Below, piece after piece: positions 3,086-17,408 of a DNA stretch of 19,493 bases (position 1 is its first letter; each line of letters begins with the position of its first letter). The DNA lies in NCBI GenBank assembly GCA_015852425.1, contig JAAAIG010000399.1, positions 11,049-30,541 on the forward strand, written 5' to 3'. The notes below the pieces were generated by a model. That model made no database searches, was not told the DNA's origin, and saw only the letters and a list, made by a program, of their open reading frames with translations. Made by a program: the position numbers and the translations under genes. This DNA comes from Gryganskiella cystojenkinii (Eukaryota > Mortierellomycota > Mortierellomycetes > Mortierellales > Mortierellaceae).

Positions 3086-3094
3086 CTTTATATA
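3086..3094 (-). promoter_or_regulatory. TATA box of the small secreted protein gene
   Basis: TATATAAAG reads on the minus strand. It is about 300 bases from the ATG, but about 135 once the leader intron is removed, which agrees with the TATA-to-ATG spacing of other genes in this window. Confidence 0.5.
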
Positions 3095-7731: not shown

Positions 7732-7863
7732 GTAAGTGCGAGACTGCTTTTAAAAAATACAATTAAGCATATGCACGGTTATCGCACTTGGAGTGGTATA
7801 TTAAAAAGCTCTTCGAGTCGTCTTCTGACCTTGTATCAACCCGTACTCTTCGTTTTCCTCTAG
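7732..7863 (+). other. Possible leader intron before the NlpC/P60 gene
   Basis: GTAAGT at 7732 is a consensus donor. TTTTCCTCTAG ending at 7863 is a good acceptor, with CTGAC at 7825-7829 as branch point. The span is 132 bases and ends two bases before the ATG at 7866. The exon before it has a TAA in the gene's frame at 7704 and no ATG after it, so no signal peptide is added. Against it, a TATA-like TATATTAAAA at 7797-7806 inside this interval could instead start a short unspliced leader. Confidence 0.4.
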
Positions 7864-7865
7864 AC

Positions 7866-8321
7866 ATGGCCCCTTACGACCCCACAGCAGCGATCAATAG
7901 CGCCAGATCCCAAATTGGCATCCAATATGCCTGGGGTGGCGGACACGGTCCTACTCCTGGCAAGACCCGAGGTACCTGCCAGTGGTATGAGGGGCCACCC
8001 TACCCATGCGTTGATGACAAAGTCGATGGCTATGACTGCAGTGGTCTTGTTCGTTATGCTGTTTGGCAAGGATCCGGAAGGTCCATCGATCTTGGCCACG
8101 GTGGCAACACTGACACACAGTACCGGGATGGCCACAGTCGCAAAATCACTTTAGGGGAGAGACAGCCTGGCGATCTCGTTTTCTATGGCACGCCTGGTAA
8201 CACTCATCATGTTGCCTTGTACATCGGCAATGACAGGATGATCGAAGCTCGAGAGAGCTTGACGCCTGTGATGGAGTCTCAACTTCGCACTCAGAACGGC
8301 CTCTGGGTCCGCATTGTTTAA
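7866..8321 (+). CDS. NlpC/P60 family cysteine peptidase-fold protein
   Basis: The product has 151 residues, the size of a lone NlpC/P60 domain. The family cleaves peptide bonds in peptidoglycan stems, typically between D-gamma-glutamyl and diamino acid residues; some members act on other amides. Visible motifs are an N-terminal helix and a YAWGGG motif (21-26), DGYDCSGLVRYAVW with the catalytic Cys58, QPGDLVFYG (100-108), HHVALYIG with His115, and MIEA with Glu127. Cys-His-Glu at this spacing matches the triad known from mycobacterial RipA; many relatives have His third. Cys38 and Cys48 in an insert (about 28-53) could form a disulfide. No signal peptide is encoded from this ATG; an in-frame upstream TTG at 7788 is not credible. 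The CDS is intronless. Fungal NlpC/P60 genes are usually explained by bacterial transfer, which is inference here. Confidence 0.88.
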   Translation: MAPYDPTAAINSARSQIGIQYAWGGGHGPTPGKTRGTCQWYEGPPYPCVDDKVDGYDCSGLVRYAVWQGSGRSIDLGHGGNTDTQYRDGHSRKITLGERQPGDLVFYGTPGNTHHVALYIGNDRMIEARESLTPVMESQLRTQNGLWVRIV

Positions 8322-10714: not shown

Positions 10715-10930
10715 ATGCTTTCCAACAAGTTGTTCCTTATTGCCCTGATGGGCGTTGCTCTCGTGGCCAGCGTCGTCGAATCCTCAGTCATTCCCGAAAA
10801 GCGTGCAACCTGTCTTTCGCTGGGATCAAGCTGCAGCGTTATTCCCGATATCACTCGTCCTCGCTGCTGCAATTTCCTTGTTTGTGACCTCAAGACTGCC
10901 AGATGCAAAAGCGGTATCACCATCAACTAA
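10715..10930 (+). CDS. Secreted pro-peptide with inhibitor-cystine-knot cysteine pattern
   Basis: The product is 71 residues. Residues 1 to about 23 are a signal peptide, followed by a short pro-region ending in Lys29-Arg30, a Kex2 processing site. The mature part of about 41 residues has six cysteines at 33, 40, 51, 52, 57 and 64: C-x6-C-x10-C-C-x4-C-x6-C. The CC pair and these spacings fit the inhibitor cystine knot (knottin) framework, a very stable three-disulfide fold used by peptides with many roles, including protease inhibition and channel or membrane binding. The role here cannot be read from sequence. The gene has its own TATA box and polyadenylation signal and no intron. A longer minus ORF over the same bases lacks these features and is a shadow. 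Confidence 0.8.
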   Translation: MLSNKLFLIALMGVALVASVVESSVIPEKRATCLSLGSSCSVIPDITRPRCCNFLVCDLKTARCKSGITIN

Positions 10931-11189: not shown

Positions 11190-11816
11190 ATGTGGCAATT
11201 ATGCAACGATATTCAACCACACACCGCGTCAAATATAATAACGAAATTCTTAGTAGCTACATCGCCAAATACTCCACCGATGGAACAAAAGTGGATGAGT
11301 AGCCATCAAGTTGTAAACGTGAGGGAGTACTGGAACTTGGTCGTTCAGAAAGGATATTCGGGATTAATGGCCATGTCTAGATTGGAGATGGTGGTTCTTC
11401 TTTCGTTCATTCTCGATGCCGACGTCAGCCTTCGACATGATTCCAACAACTCTCAGCCTCATTTGCAGGACTGGCTTCGTCATTTTGCCGTGGAAGAATT
11501 GATCGAACTTGAAACAGCCGCCCTCCAACATACTGACCCCGATCTCTCTCACATACAACACCTCATAGAAATCGAGCAGGAAATTCTCACAGGCGGGCAC
11601 ATCGAGAAGCCAGCTTTTTGCTCTAGGCTCGACTGGACAGAAAGGGAAAACGCAGCGCCCAATATTCCCTTCGATGCATTCAACAACAACGCCAACGTCG
11701 CCTCATCCCCGCCAATTCTGACCCAGACCCCCCCCCCCCCCCCCCCCCCCAGAGAAGAAAGTTCATGTGTTGCTCTAACGAGTGTCGCTGCCTCCATCAT
11801 CGTCGTAGGTGCGTAA
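11190..11816 (+). CDS. Hypothetical protein with poly-proline run and hydrophobic C terminus
   Basis: The ORF is 208 codons. Its middle (residues about 45-130) is predicted mostly helical and acidic, for example WLRHFAVEELIELETAAL; the later part is Asn/Pro-rich, and the end has a short hydrophobic stretch (VALTSVAASIIVVGA). I recognise no family. TATATTA at 11184 overlaps the first ATG, so the in-frame ATG at 11280, 96 bases downstream, may be the real start (178 residues), matching the TATA-to-ATG spacing of other genes here. A run of 23 C at 11728-11750 encodes the prolines and makes the frame after it uncertain: one other frame ends after ten codons, and the third gives a Cys/Arg-rich tail ending at 11835. 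An AATAAA follows at 11838. Confidence 0.5.
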   Translation: MWQLCNDIQPHTASNIITKFLVATSPNTPPMEQKWMSSHQVVNVREYWNLVVQKGYSGLMAMSRLEMVVLLSFILDADVSLRHDSNNSQPHLQDWLRHFAVEELIELETAALQHTDPDLSHIQHLIEIEQEILTGGHIEKPAFCSRLDWTERENAAPNIPFDAFNNNANVASSPPILTQTPPPPPPPREESSCVALTSVAASIIVVGA

Positions 11817-11849: not shown

Positions 11850-12580
11850 GAAAAACGAACATATTCGTTGAAGAAAGTGTACGAGCTGCTCGTTCGTCCT
11901 TTTTTTGGGCATTGAACGCTGTTAGTTTGAAATCCCTTTTTTGGAAACCTTCGAAAAAAAAATTCGTACGACTGGTGTAGGATGTGCCGGGTTGCCATCA
12001 TACAAAATTTGAAAGGAAAAGAAGACATGGCATCAACAACACTGTTGTAACTGATGGGTTTGAGTACCTTCTGGCGCTCGGCATGGTCCAAACAGGGATG
12101 CAGCTCACTGGGCATTATATTATATCGATCCTCAATGTAAAGCGGATATTGCTTCCTTCAACCAAAACTTCCAACACAGCTCGAAATATGTGGTGATGGA
12201 ATCTTACAGAAGCCAGAAGCCTCCAGGAGGTTCATTCTCAAGTCAAGAAGCGACTGGTACTCCTTTGGTATGTACTGTGGTCATTGTTTCGAACTTGTCG
12301 CCCTTGCCATGCAATGGAAGGATGTAGATATGAAGATATCACGTTCAAAACTGTCACAGGTTTGATTTGGCGCGTGGTGGACGGGGATGACCTGGAGACT
12401 ATTCTCACACCATCATTTGATTCTTTCCAATGCCCCATGAATTTTCCCACCCTTTCTTCAGCTTGCCCTTGATCTTTCTCATTCCTGTTCATAAGTGGAA
12501 TAGTATTCTGATAATACATTCTCACTATGCCCTAATGATAATAATGACTTGATTTGTTACTTTTCATTAAGGTCCCTTTT
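11850..12580. other. Intergenic stretch, nothing supported
   Basis: Small ORFs on both strands (for example minus 12525-12238 with an acidic-basic helix near QAEERVGKF) have no promoter or recognised domain. The right end is the upstream region of the plus-strand promoter at 12585. Confidence 0.35.
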
Positions 12581-12584
12581 CACA

Positions 12585-12592
12585 TATATAAG
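12585..12592 (+). promoter_or_regulatory. TATA box facing the inverted repeat from the left
   Basis: TATATAAG lies 92 bases before the ATG at 12677, the same spacing as the TATA box of the cystine-knot gene. Transcription from it would enter the left repeat arm. Confidence 0.5.
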
Positions 12593-12676
12593 GAAGGCAT
12601 GCATCCTTGTGTCCTGCTTTGAGACGCATCTGATCCTACTTCAAGACTCAAGACTCGCAACACACTCCTAAAGCTC

Positions 12677-12787
12677 ATGGCAATTGCTCCAAGAACCGTT
12701 GCAAGAGCCATTGCAAGAACTGCCATAGACCCTGAGAACGTTCGCGTAACTGTCCATGAAGCCCTTGTACTGTACCACCCCGACTGA
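12677..12787 (+). pseudogene. Truncated ORF ending at the repeat boundary
   Basis: From the ATG, 36 codons of natural composition follow (MAIAPRTVARAIARTAI, then DPENVRVTVHEALVLYHPD), and then a TGA at 12785-12787 whose last two bases are the first bases of the left repeat arm (12786). The gene segment inside the arm continues in a different frame (ATG GGC AAT from 12789). This looks like the first exon of a gene whose continuation was replaced or knocked out of frame when the repeat arose. A good TATA box lies upstream. I do not recognise the protein. Confidence 0.45.
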
Positions 12788-12979
12788 CATGGGCAATGAC
12801 AAGTTTCAGATTTCTCTATCCTCGTCTCCTGTTGGGCAGTCGACCAGCCAGTTTCAGCTACAGACACCCACAGCTCATGGTAGTCTACTTGTAAGTGTGC
12901 TGCAGGCCTTGAGCCTAACCAGTGTGCCTCTCCTGCACAGAATGAAGCTCGCCATTATCAACGAACTCTTCCGACAGGA
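12786..12979 (+). repeat. Left arm of a 194-base inverted repeat
   Basis: The arm is the reverse complement of 13002-13195 with only two mismatches that I can find, at 12798 (G against A in the other copy read the same way) and 12973 (G against A). It carries, in plus sense, a coding segment (KFQISLSSSPVGQSTSQFQ onward), a 50-base intron at 12891-12940 (GTAAGTG donor, CCTAACC branch point, CTGCACAG acceptor, phase 0), and the start of a second exon (NEARHYQRTLPTG). Confidence 0.95.
12891..12940 (+). other. 50-base intron inside the left arm
   Basis: The donor GTAAGTG, branch point CTAAC at 12914-12918 and acceptor CACAG at 12936-12940 are all consensus. The identical intron occurs on the minus strand at 13090-13041 in the right arm. 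Reading through it keeps the frame open for a while, but splicing joins SLL to NEARHYQ in phase 0. Confidence 0.65.
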
Positions 12980-14083
12980 GCATTTTTTTCGCCGTCAAGT
13001 ATCCTGTTGGAAGAGTTCGTTGATAATGGCGAGCTTCATTCTGTGCAGGAGAGGCACACTGGTTAGGCTCAAGGCCTGCAGCACACTTACAAGTAGACTA
13101 CCATGAGCTGTGGGTGTCTGTAGCTGAAACTGGCTGGTCGACTGCCCAACAGGAGACGAGGATAGAGAAATCTGAAACTTGTTATTGCCCATGTCGACAG
13201 GCTCGATGCATCCGTAAGCAAAACTTGACATGGAGGATGGCCTAAGAGGAGATATGGAGGAGTCTGGCAGCACCGGAGCTTTACCCTTGCTCTTGCGCCG
13301 CCTGCCAGCGGTTTTGGCAGCCTCGTCCTCAGCGATCTGAGCGCCATCGTCAATTTCCATGAGCCCTTCGCCAATGGGGGAAACTAGAGCTTGTGCTTGC
13401 TCGATGGGTTGATGGGATGCTTTGTCTTTGTTCTTGGTGCTCTCTCAACTTGGTAGTGTCTGGTACGGATAAACGGTTCGTCGTTGTCGTTGTCGTAGTC
13501 GTGGTCCTCAACAATAGGTCTCAAACAGATCGAGAAATCTAACGAATCAGCATCAGAGGGAGCGCGTTAGAGGTGGGATCGACACCCTATAGTCCCTGCT
13601 TCAAATGAATAATGTGCAGTTATCGTATCTTACTCGCAGCTGAGAGCTTCGTGCCCCATTTCTTGATACGGCTCGCATACAGCGGCAGCGTGCGTGGTTG
13701 TAAATACGACCTTCTTTTTGCCCGGTGCAGCTTTTCGTAGAGACCCGGGCTTTATCTTCTTGAAACTGATGGTTGACTGTGGAGAGGTGTTGTTGGTGGA
13801 GGAGCCGCTATTGCTGGTAGGGCGTGGCGATGGCTTTCAGGCATTTTTGCTAACGGATGCCCTCGAGCTTGGCCTGAACCAAATCATCATGGCAGCCATC
13901 GTCCTTCGCCCGTTTTCTCTTGCCCTTGTCTTGAGAGGCGCTGCTGATAGTGCTACAGGTGGCGAGGGTGTATGGACGAGGCGCCGCCTGCGCCCGTGTC
14001 ACCATTCGTCGGTTGACCTTCAGGGCTTTAACTGGTGGAGAATGGCTCTTGGAAGATCCTGGTTCCTTACGGTGTGATATCAT
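12915..14083 (-). pseudogene. Ser/Thr-rich basic, probably nuclear protein; broken gene ending in the hairpin
   Basis: Family not recognised. The ATG at 14083 lies about 100 bases after a TATA box. The protein has basic clusters (DKGKRKRAKDD, GRRRKSKGK, KAAPGKKKVVF), an acidic tract (EDHDYDNDNDEP) and a Ser/Gln-rich segment, as in nuclear regulators. Coding character moves between frames: a TAG at 13852-13850 and TGA at 13839-13837, avoidable by a phase-0 46-base intron 13879-13834 with a weak GTTCAG donor; a probable 38-base intron 13633-13596; a shift next to a TAA at 13569-13567 that no intron explains; and a two-base shift in a CT repeat at 13440-13446 (GAGAGAGC on the coding strand). The last intron is 13090-13041. 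After the right arm the frame crosses the spacer and ends at a TAG (12917-12915) inside the opposite arm, so the native 3' end is lost. Confidence 0.55.
13002..13195 (-). repeat. Right arm of a 194-base inverted repeat
   Basis: It is the reverse complement of 12786-12979, separated from it by a 22-base T-rich spacer (12980-13001). In minus sense it is continuous with the coding sequence of the gene starting at 14083 (CIEPVDMGNNKFQ), so this copy sits in its parent gene and the left arm is probably the derived copy. Confidence 0.95.
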
Positions 14084-14182
14084 TCAATGGGAAAGAATGA
14101 TGGTTGGTACAGAGAAAGCAGTGTGAAGCGTGTGTATTCGTGCCGAATAAAGAACGGAAGAAAGAACTTTATCGATACTTCA

Positions 14183-14190
14183 TTTTATAG
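14183..14190 (-). promoter_or_regulatory. TATA box facing the inverted repeat from the right
   Basis: CTATAAAA reads on the minus strand, about 100 bases before the ATG at 14083. It points towards the hairpin, opposite to the TATA box at 12585. Confidence 0.5.
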
Positions 14191-16093: not shown

Positions 16094-17408
16094 ATGTCTG
16101 GTCAGGTTGCTCAGGCGAACGTGATTATGGACCTCATGAGCTCATTACTTACCGCTCAAGTCTGAAATGGATAAGAACGCAGGCCTTCAACAGCAACTCA
16201 TGGAAATGAGTCAAAAGATTCCCAAGATGCAGCAAATCGCCCTCGATCACCTTTCCAACCTTGCAAACCCAGATCGAGGCCGTCCTCACCCGAATATACG
16301 AGCTCCACGAATACCCCATCCCGAGATAGTTCATTGTCTTGCCCAAGGTCGGCGGTCGGTCCACGCGAGATGCGATTTGAAACCGTTCAGGCAACAGCAG
16401 TTCCGGTTATGTTTCTTGTGCGAATGTGGGCGGCATACGACCAAGGACGGTGCCACGACTATTGACGAGAGGTCCATTTGACGAAGCATGACAGATACGA
16501 TATCGATCAGCCAACAGAGTTCTTTCGCAAGTATGGTCACTATATCATGTCAATGATGCAAATGTTCAAGATCGGAGTCTAAGCCGCCAGTCTGGTGGTT
16601 CCTCGGCTGGCGCATTTCAATTTAGTCGAGAGCATCGATATGACGACTCGACAACTCGCAGAAACCAAGGGCTCAATCCGCTCCTTGGCCGATGAGACCA
16701 TTGCTTTTATCGAAGGTCAACATGCGCGGCTCAACGTGGATGCACTTCTCAGTAGCAACGGCAGTAGAGGCGGCAGCGGCGTTTACGTCCATTTGCTGTT
16801 GCTGGCCCTCAAAGGCGTCGAATTGGAACAGCTTGAGAATTTTCTTCAAGTCGCGGACACAGGGAGAGCGCTCGGTAACCATTCAAGAACGATGACCTCG
16901 GATGGTCATGTGAAGTGGGTCAGTCGTCACCACTTCCGGCCAATGTACAGGCTTTAAGTCATCAGCAGCTGTTGGGCATCGTGTATGAGCATAGTAGTGT
17001 CCTGGAAGAGACTATTAGTTCGTTAACCATGTCGCTCGCGAGCAAGACTGTCGCGAATCCGCTTTACGCCGCACTGGAGCAAGCTCATGCGATCCTAGAA
17101 CTCCAAGTCGAGCTGGGCTGGGATGTCTCAATGGAAGACCTTCGCAAATTTGCAAAAGCCATCAGCAAATCTTATGTCACAATTTTGATCGTCCACAGCG
17201 ATCGCTTTCGGGCGGTCCGACCATGAACATCGTCAACAGGAACCGCCATTACGCGCCTCTGATCCAGCTTCTTGGAAACGGTCGTCTTCAATCAGCCGAG
17301 TTTGGTATCAAGGACATTTCCGCAGAGTCGACCTCTCGGCTATCCGTGTCGCGCCTCATATTCGTGCCATTTGCATTCCCAATTAGTACTGAACCAAGCG
17401 CGAAATAA
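16094..17408 (+). pseudogene. Decayed member of a large fungal (Mortierella-type) hypothetical protein family
   Basis: Reading across frames gives a continuous protein: SGQVAQANVIMDLMSSLL; a helical Gln/Leu-rich stretch; LQTQIEAVLTRIYELHEYPI, then FIVLP; FRLCFLCECGRHTTKDG; a KHDRYD...EFFRKYGHYIMSMMQ block; VVPRLAHFNLVESID; LENFLQVADTGRALGN; TSDGHVKWV; then leucine-rich-repeat-like segments (ILELQVELGWDVSMEDLRKF, IVNRNRHYAPLIQLLGNG). I recall this motif order from large uncharacterised proteins of Mortierella-type fungi; it is unnamed and unchecked. Frames run 2, 0, 1, 0, 2, 1, 0 with changes near 16163, 16263, 16360-16380, 16476, 16930-16955 and 17215, plus in-frame TAG 16327-16329 and TAA 16580-16582. 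No plausible introns explain these, so it is a pseudogene. The family's usual function is not known to me. Confidence 0.75.

Follow-up and report, generated by a model that had tools for sequence, protein, structure and literature searches.

A near-perfect 194-bp hairpin inside a decayed gene-family copy of Gryganskiella cystojenkinii, with a probable foldback origin at a native short inverted repeat

Gryganskiella cystojenkinii belongs to the Mortierellaceae (Mortierellomycota), and its genome is represented by an assembly of 35 Mb in 1050 contigs. The stretch analysed here, which we call the window, comprises 19,493 nucleotides (positions 11,049-30,541) of contig JAAAIG010000399.1 and contains a long hairpin locus whose features are collected in Table 1. 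An earlier note had described a 194-base inverted repeat with a 22-base spacer and two mismatches, a description that proved exact, as direct comparison of the arms found 192 of 194 positions to be complementary. The mismatches are located at 12798, where a G stands opposite 13183, and at 12973, where a G stands opposite 13008 (both an A after reverse-complementing 13002-13195). The RNA stem of about 194 bp that had been postulated is likewise recovered by single-strand fold prediction, which returns one unbroken stem of 194 pairs with -411.8 kcal/mol. Within a 3-kb span, the longest exact inverted repeat measures 174 nt, compared to 12-14 nt in 20 out of 20 dinucleotide shuffles. In an ungapped search of 39 loci, which amount to 177,828 bases and form a partly overlapping, non-random sample of the genome, no arms reached 100 nt except those of this hairpin, which locus L051 contains by overlap; after them, the longest arms measured 40 nt. 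Across the whole window, Rfam gave 0 matches at gathering score and a tRNA scan found none.

Table 1. Coordinates of the hairpin and of the features around it (window positions).
Feature	Position	Strand	Remarks
Promoter/leader-homologous region	12444-12711	+	Aligns to sequence of contig C776 lying upstream of a gene predicted to encode a small secreted Cys-rich protein
TATA box	12585-12591	+	201 nt to the left of the hairpin
36-codon ORF in the leader	12677-12787	+	Stop codon lies across the outer junction; possibly without a role
Left arm	12786-12979	+	Inverted duplicate of gene-family sequence; inner 10 nt (12970-12979) native
Mirror copy of the predicted intron	12891-12940	+	In the left arm; by sequence
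Truncated, decayed family copy	12970-14141	-	From blastn against L007-L018 and reading frames
Seed, 3' half	12970-12979	-	TCCTGTCGGA; 9/10 pairs with 13002-13011
Spacer	12980-13001	-	22 nt of native family sequence, loop of the old quasi-palindrome; paralogues collinear through it
Right arm	13002-13195	-	Native gene-family segment comprising the last part of exon 1, the 50-nt intron and the first part of exon 2
Seed, 5' half	13002-13011	-	TCCAACAGGA; inner end of the right arm
Predicted intron	13041-13090	-	50 nt, GTAAGT...CTAAC...CAG, in the right arm; by sequence
TATA-like box	14183-14189	-	Regular-expression match; close to where the decayed family copy starts

Paralogues of the hairpin segment, for which the earlier note had proposed to look, do exist, as a DNA query matched at least 12 other loci elsewhere in the genome, the closest with 86-87% DNA identity. 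Minus-strand similarity to these loci (L007 to L018) runs from about position 14141 to 12970, is best in L008 and recurs at 14388-14470 in L017 (blastn), and the right arm remains collinear with the paralogues far past its own end, namely to 13515 and in L008 further. Downstream, the paralogues carry an exon that looks coiled-coil-like by eye and that is absent from the hairpin-bearing copy. Since 8 of the 14 matches to this exon in a search of the own genome contain in-frame stops (7 of 10 loci), the parent family looks largely decayed. The two arm-containing ORFs, scanned among nine window ORFs, gave no Pfam match, and neither the 112-aa coiled-coil exon (E <= 0.001) nor positions 12995-13360 of the minus strand (E <= 0.1), each searched against 8 candidates at the protein level, found a match; as such, the family is left without a name here. 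Contig C328 (locus L029) stops at 40997 inside a copy of the same family, and further copies on C349, C218, C177, C301 and C1027 also lie near contig ends, which is why the family may be one that breaks this assembly.

The arms are not equivalent with respect to this family: the right arm is native, whereas the left arm is a copy of this adjoining arm in reverse complement. Eleven of the 12 paralogues were aligned across the junction, L018, which matches only outside it, being left out. In five of the 12 (L007, L008, L010, L011 and L015), native-strand BLAST alignments reach 12970 and thus cover the spacer plus 10 nt of left-arm sequence. Alignments of four further paralogues end within 13 nt of that position (12977 in L017, 12980 in L009, 12983 in both L013 and L014), those of the remaining two end farther off (12998 in L012, 13019 in L016), and none among the 12 extends beyond 12970. 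The point at which native-strand homology stops is the end of a short inverted repeat. In the hairpin-less loci L007 and L008, TCCAACAGGA ... TCCTATTGGA form 9 of 10 Watson-Crick pairs around a loop of 22-23 nt, and the native register was the best among 51-58 downstream registers in five out of five paralogues scored. Given that L007 and L008 carry the quasi-palindrome in the absence of a hairpin and that the native register ranks first, the short quasi-palindrome is most likely the older structure and the left arm a foldback copy of 184 nt. The second stem mismatch falls into this seed, as the foldback model permits. It counts against a foldback origin that a strong quasi-palindrome of 9 of 10 pairs is present in only two of the 11 paralogues scored, with the other nine showing 7, 7, 7, 6, 6, 6, 5, 3 and 3 of 10 pairs at the seed site.

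Taken together, we place good confidence in a foldback origin of the hairpin. In the sequence of events that we propose, a growing strand would have copied to 12970 within the decayed family member, where its 3' end TCCTGTCGGA would have paired with the upstream TCCAACAGGA across the 22-nt loop. From there, 184 nt would have been copied back along the strand's own sequence to 13195, at which point a second switch would have joined the new end to a homologue of a secreted-protein gene leader, the outcome being a near-perfect 194-bp hairpin at a distance of 201 nt from a TATA box. With regard to the route, a template switch in replication, quasi-palindrome correction and foldback-primed break repair would all be compatible with this scheme. 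The presence of an inverted repeat in a dispersed family could also be imagined to reflect a transposon with terminal inverted repeats (MITE-like) or a snapback element; yet the arms consist of exon-intron-exon sequence of a family gene and their inner end lies at a native 10-nt repeat, so that we regard this reading as hardly credible. A MITE or snapback transposon was furthermore rejected in an ungapped search of L007-L018, which contained no inverted repeat of 100 nt or more, the longest measuring 40 nt.

The copied part of the arms differs at 1 of 184 positions, in line with the recent origin that had been suggested from the near identity of the arms. The difference lies at 13183, where all eight paralogues with sequence at that site (three others are gapped) agree with the left arm; the left arm thus keeps the ancestral base, and it is the right arm that has changed. 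Both arms are equally distant from L007 and L008 (158 and 159 of 184). Based on this equal distance and the single difference between the arms, the event is much younger than the spread of the family, provided that the likeness of the arms is not due to gene conversion.

A rival reading is an artefact, in which single strands folded back at short inverted repeats during library preparation or amplification and the resulting chimeric reads entered the contig at assembly. Libraries are known to contain foldback chimeras that start from short inverted repeats (PMC10908179), such artefacts have also been described in PMC6218980 and PMC12870357, and an assembly of this many contigs is possibly a short-read one. 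However, a foldback artefact accounts for one junction, whereas a second one exists at 12786, where the left arm gives way to near-single-copy DNA. An artefactual copy should moreover carry the derived base of the right arm at 13183, which the left arm does not, an argument that holds if the right-arm base is not an error. No orphan continuation of the hairpin-bearing copy was seen in the 14 downstream-exon matches. We thus judge an artefact to be less likely, and indeed unlikely. The end of contig C328 was considered as a lost continuation and set aside: its fragment has 71-75% identity to L007 and L008, compared with about 86% for the hairpin-bearing copy in the arm, and probably represents another subfamily for that reason (it has 84% identity to L009, over 55 bp only, and about 86% to L015). 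At 11728-11750, the window contains an unbroken run of 23 C, a possible weak point of assembly.

On its left side, the hairpin adjoins a region (12420-12795) that is single-copy in the genome save for a 55-base match on contig C776. The alignment of the promoter/leader-homologous region to C776 has a local score of 56, compared to at most 17.5 among 200 shuffles and at most 16.5 among 132 other 500-bp stretches from 8 loci, and the gene on C776 is predicted to encode a 52-aa Cys-rich protein that, judged by eye, is apparently secreted. The TATA box is nearly palindromic and matches the minus strand too, so that it gives no direction by itself; its assigned direction hence rests on the C776 homology. 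A further small secreted ORF, recognized by eye, is preceded on the minus strand by the same CACATATATAA context, at 3094. A search for a C776-type protein body in the window gave a best tblastn E value of 0.70, which is not significant. We infer that the hairpin occupies the former site of the body of such a secreted-protein gene, and that promoter activity of the homologous region may have survived. A genome search with the 36-codon leader ORF returned only the ORF itself at E <= 10, for which reason it may not be a gene. As further observations, small secreted Cys-rich ORFs were seen by eye at 10715-10930 (+) and 2789-2598 (-), each preceded by a TATA box (10626 (+) and 3094 (-), respectively), and the segment at 12158-12417, just left of the promoter-like region, is a dispersed repeat or paralogous segment that has counterparts, most of them with 73-83% identity, on 12 other contigs.

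As to whether a hairpin RNA could be processed, the genome encodes components of RNAi. An Argonaute ORF with PAZ, Mid and Piwi domains is present, Piwi matches occur on six contigs (C12 included), and an Argonaute ORF on C728 matches hypothetical protein BGZ83_009745 of G. cystojenkinii with 100% identity. Two Dicer-like ORFs each have two RNase III stretches, one of them with a below-cut-off PAZ match, a third, weak RNase III match barely over the cut-off is found on C262, and RdRP matches are found on C608 and C719. In Mucor circinelloides, which like G. cystojenkinii is an early-diverging fungus, silencing by an inverted-repeat transgene needs dcl-2 and ago-1 and is amplified by RdRP (PMC3720535). 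It is possible that the hairpin feeds RNAi. Transcription from the promoter-like side or from the family side would make a hairpin RNA, which the Dicer-like enzymes might cut, and the small RNAs would act mainly on their own locus and weakly on the closest paralogues; from a plus-strand transcript, splicing of the mirror intron would leave a stem of about 105 + 39 bp. For small RNA production from the hairpin as such, our expectation remains tentative and below even. Literature searches on small RNAs, Dicer or Argonaute in Mortierella returned only reviews on other subjects, a weak absence given that most subscription journals lie outside the coverage; the same restriction weakens the finding of nothing on the species, its family or low-coverage Illumina genomes, and among the matches listed for fungal inverted-repeat small RNAs Mortierella was unmentioned.

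A regulatory role against paralogues, as inferred in the earlier note, fares poorly. Of the 174 21-mers of the arm, L008 matches four exactly, L016 three, L007 and L017 two each and the other eight loci none, so that near-identical targets in trans were not found at the 12 loci (0-4 of 174 per locus); with up to two mismatches allowed, the maximum is 67 (L007). The in-frame stops in the downstream exon at 7 of 10 loci weaken such a role further. Because the arm shares few exact 21-mers with the paralogues, any present small-RNA effect would be mostly on the hairpin locus itself. One could nevertheless imagine a hairpin gene comparable to maize Mu killer, kept because its siRNAs silence the family paralogues in trans. 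A partial inverted duplication of a multicopy-family member behind the promoter-like region of another gene would suit this reading, as would the RNAi genes and the proposal that readthrough from a flanking gene drives Mu killer (PMC3440606); against it, only four of the 12 loci have 2-4 exact 21-mers while eight have none, the open-frame copy L015 has 0 exact 21-mers and 12 with up to two mismatches, and there would be little to gain as the parent family looks largely decayed. We consider it quite unlikely. A newborn hairpin-siRNA gene behind a captured promoter/leader, already making siRNAs, with spread by RdRP allowing the family to be partly silenced, seems to us unlikely.

Another possibility is that the hairpin is real yet inert, that is, a young foldback scar in a pseudogene that yields no dsRNA, or dsRNA of no consequence, and that will decay. 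The stops in 8 of the 14 downstream-exon matches, the adjoining dispersed repeats, the decayed gene seen nearby by eye and the paucity of exact 21-mers shared with the paralogues are in line with such a scar, whereas the promoter-like sequence adjoining the hairpin, the RNAi genes in the genome and the fact that fungal inverted-repeat loci are known to give small RNAs (PMC4578785) argue against it; from our point of view, the matter is evenly balanced. As a whole, we regard recent foldback copying inside a decayed member of a multicopy family, possibly followed by the formation of hairpin RNA, as the best explanation of the locus and as fairly probable.

Foldback copying has several counterparts in the literature. 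Template-switch RNA hairpins (PMC8794818) are likewise produced by a one-step reverse-complement copy beside its source and pair near-perfectly, and the foldback from a native quasi-palindrome would be the version of such a hairpin at the present locus; however, no stem as long as 194 bp appears in the passages considered, and unlike those hairpins the present locus has a second junction and lacks the downstream native sequence. Quasi-palindrome correction or palindrome elongation in yeast rad27 (PMC5677150) likewise has a nascent strand fold back where a repeat is imperfect and use its own arm as template, but the example given there is a perfect repeat with 16-bp arms in a mutant strain, whereas 184 nt would have been copied here in what is presumably a wild isolate. 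Hairpin-initiated inverted duplications in yeast (PMC3974649) resemble the proposed scheme in the hairpin at a break end, the primed inverted copying and the capture of a second end. There, copying proceeded along the left arm of chromosome V toward the centromere with capture by homologous recombination, in contrast to the 184 nt copied at the present locus.

With respect to the possible output, maize Mu killer (PMC3440606) also is a partial inverted duplication of a multicopy element gene for which readthrough from the flank is proposed to make the hairpin RNA. Its hairpin of about 4 kb silences an active transposon, whereas the family considered here looks decayed. Small RNA loci of Puccinia striiformis (PMC4578785) provide a further fungal case of long inverted repeats of gene sequence, with inverted repeats accounting for 14 of 33 gene-associated small RNA loci; the examples in the passages considered are tail-to-tail pairs of homologous genes, while the present locus is a truncated gene folded on itself. 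The base rates in PMC13155455 cover spacers of up to 8 nt only and hence have no bearing on a spacer of 22 nt.

The main interest of the locus lies in the fact that its precursor state is still readable, as the seed repeat survives in unrearranged paralogues, and the analysis adds to the earlier note the seeding by a native repeat, the truncation of the parent copy and the neighbouring promoter/leader homology. To our knowledge, the birth steps of long hairpin siRNA genes have mostly been inferred from older loci. The postulated chain from quasi-palindrome via foldback copy and promoter capture to Dicer substrate thereby becomes directly testable, and even if no small RNAs are made, the locus remains a clear case, found in nature, of long foldback copying in a fungus.

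Elsewhere in the window, an uninterrupted ORF at 7788-8321 (+) matches NlpC/P60 (E 3.4e-16) and Amidase_5 and is the sole one to pass Pfam among the nine window ORFs. NlpC/P60 is a cell-wall hydrolase domain common in bacteria, and the ORF is possibly horizontally acquired. Lastly, a decayed gene with stops and shifts was recognized by eye at about 16170-17400 (+); it contains a motif like IEAVLTRIYELHEYPIP, which we take to be typical of large P-loop protein families of Mortierella.
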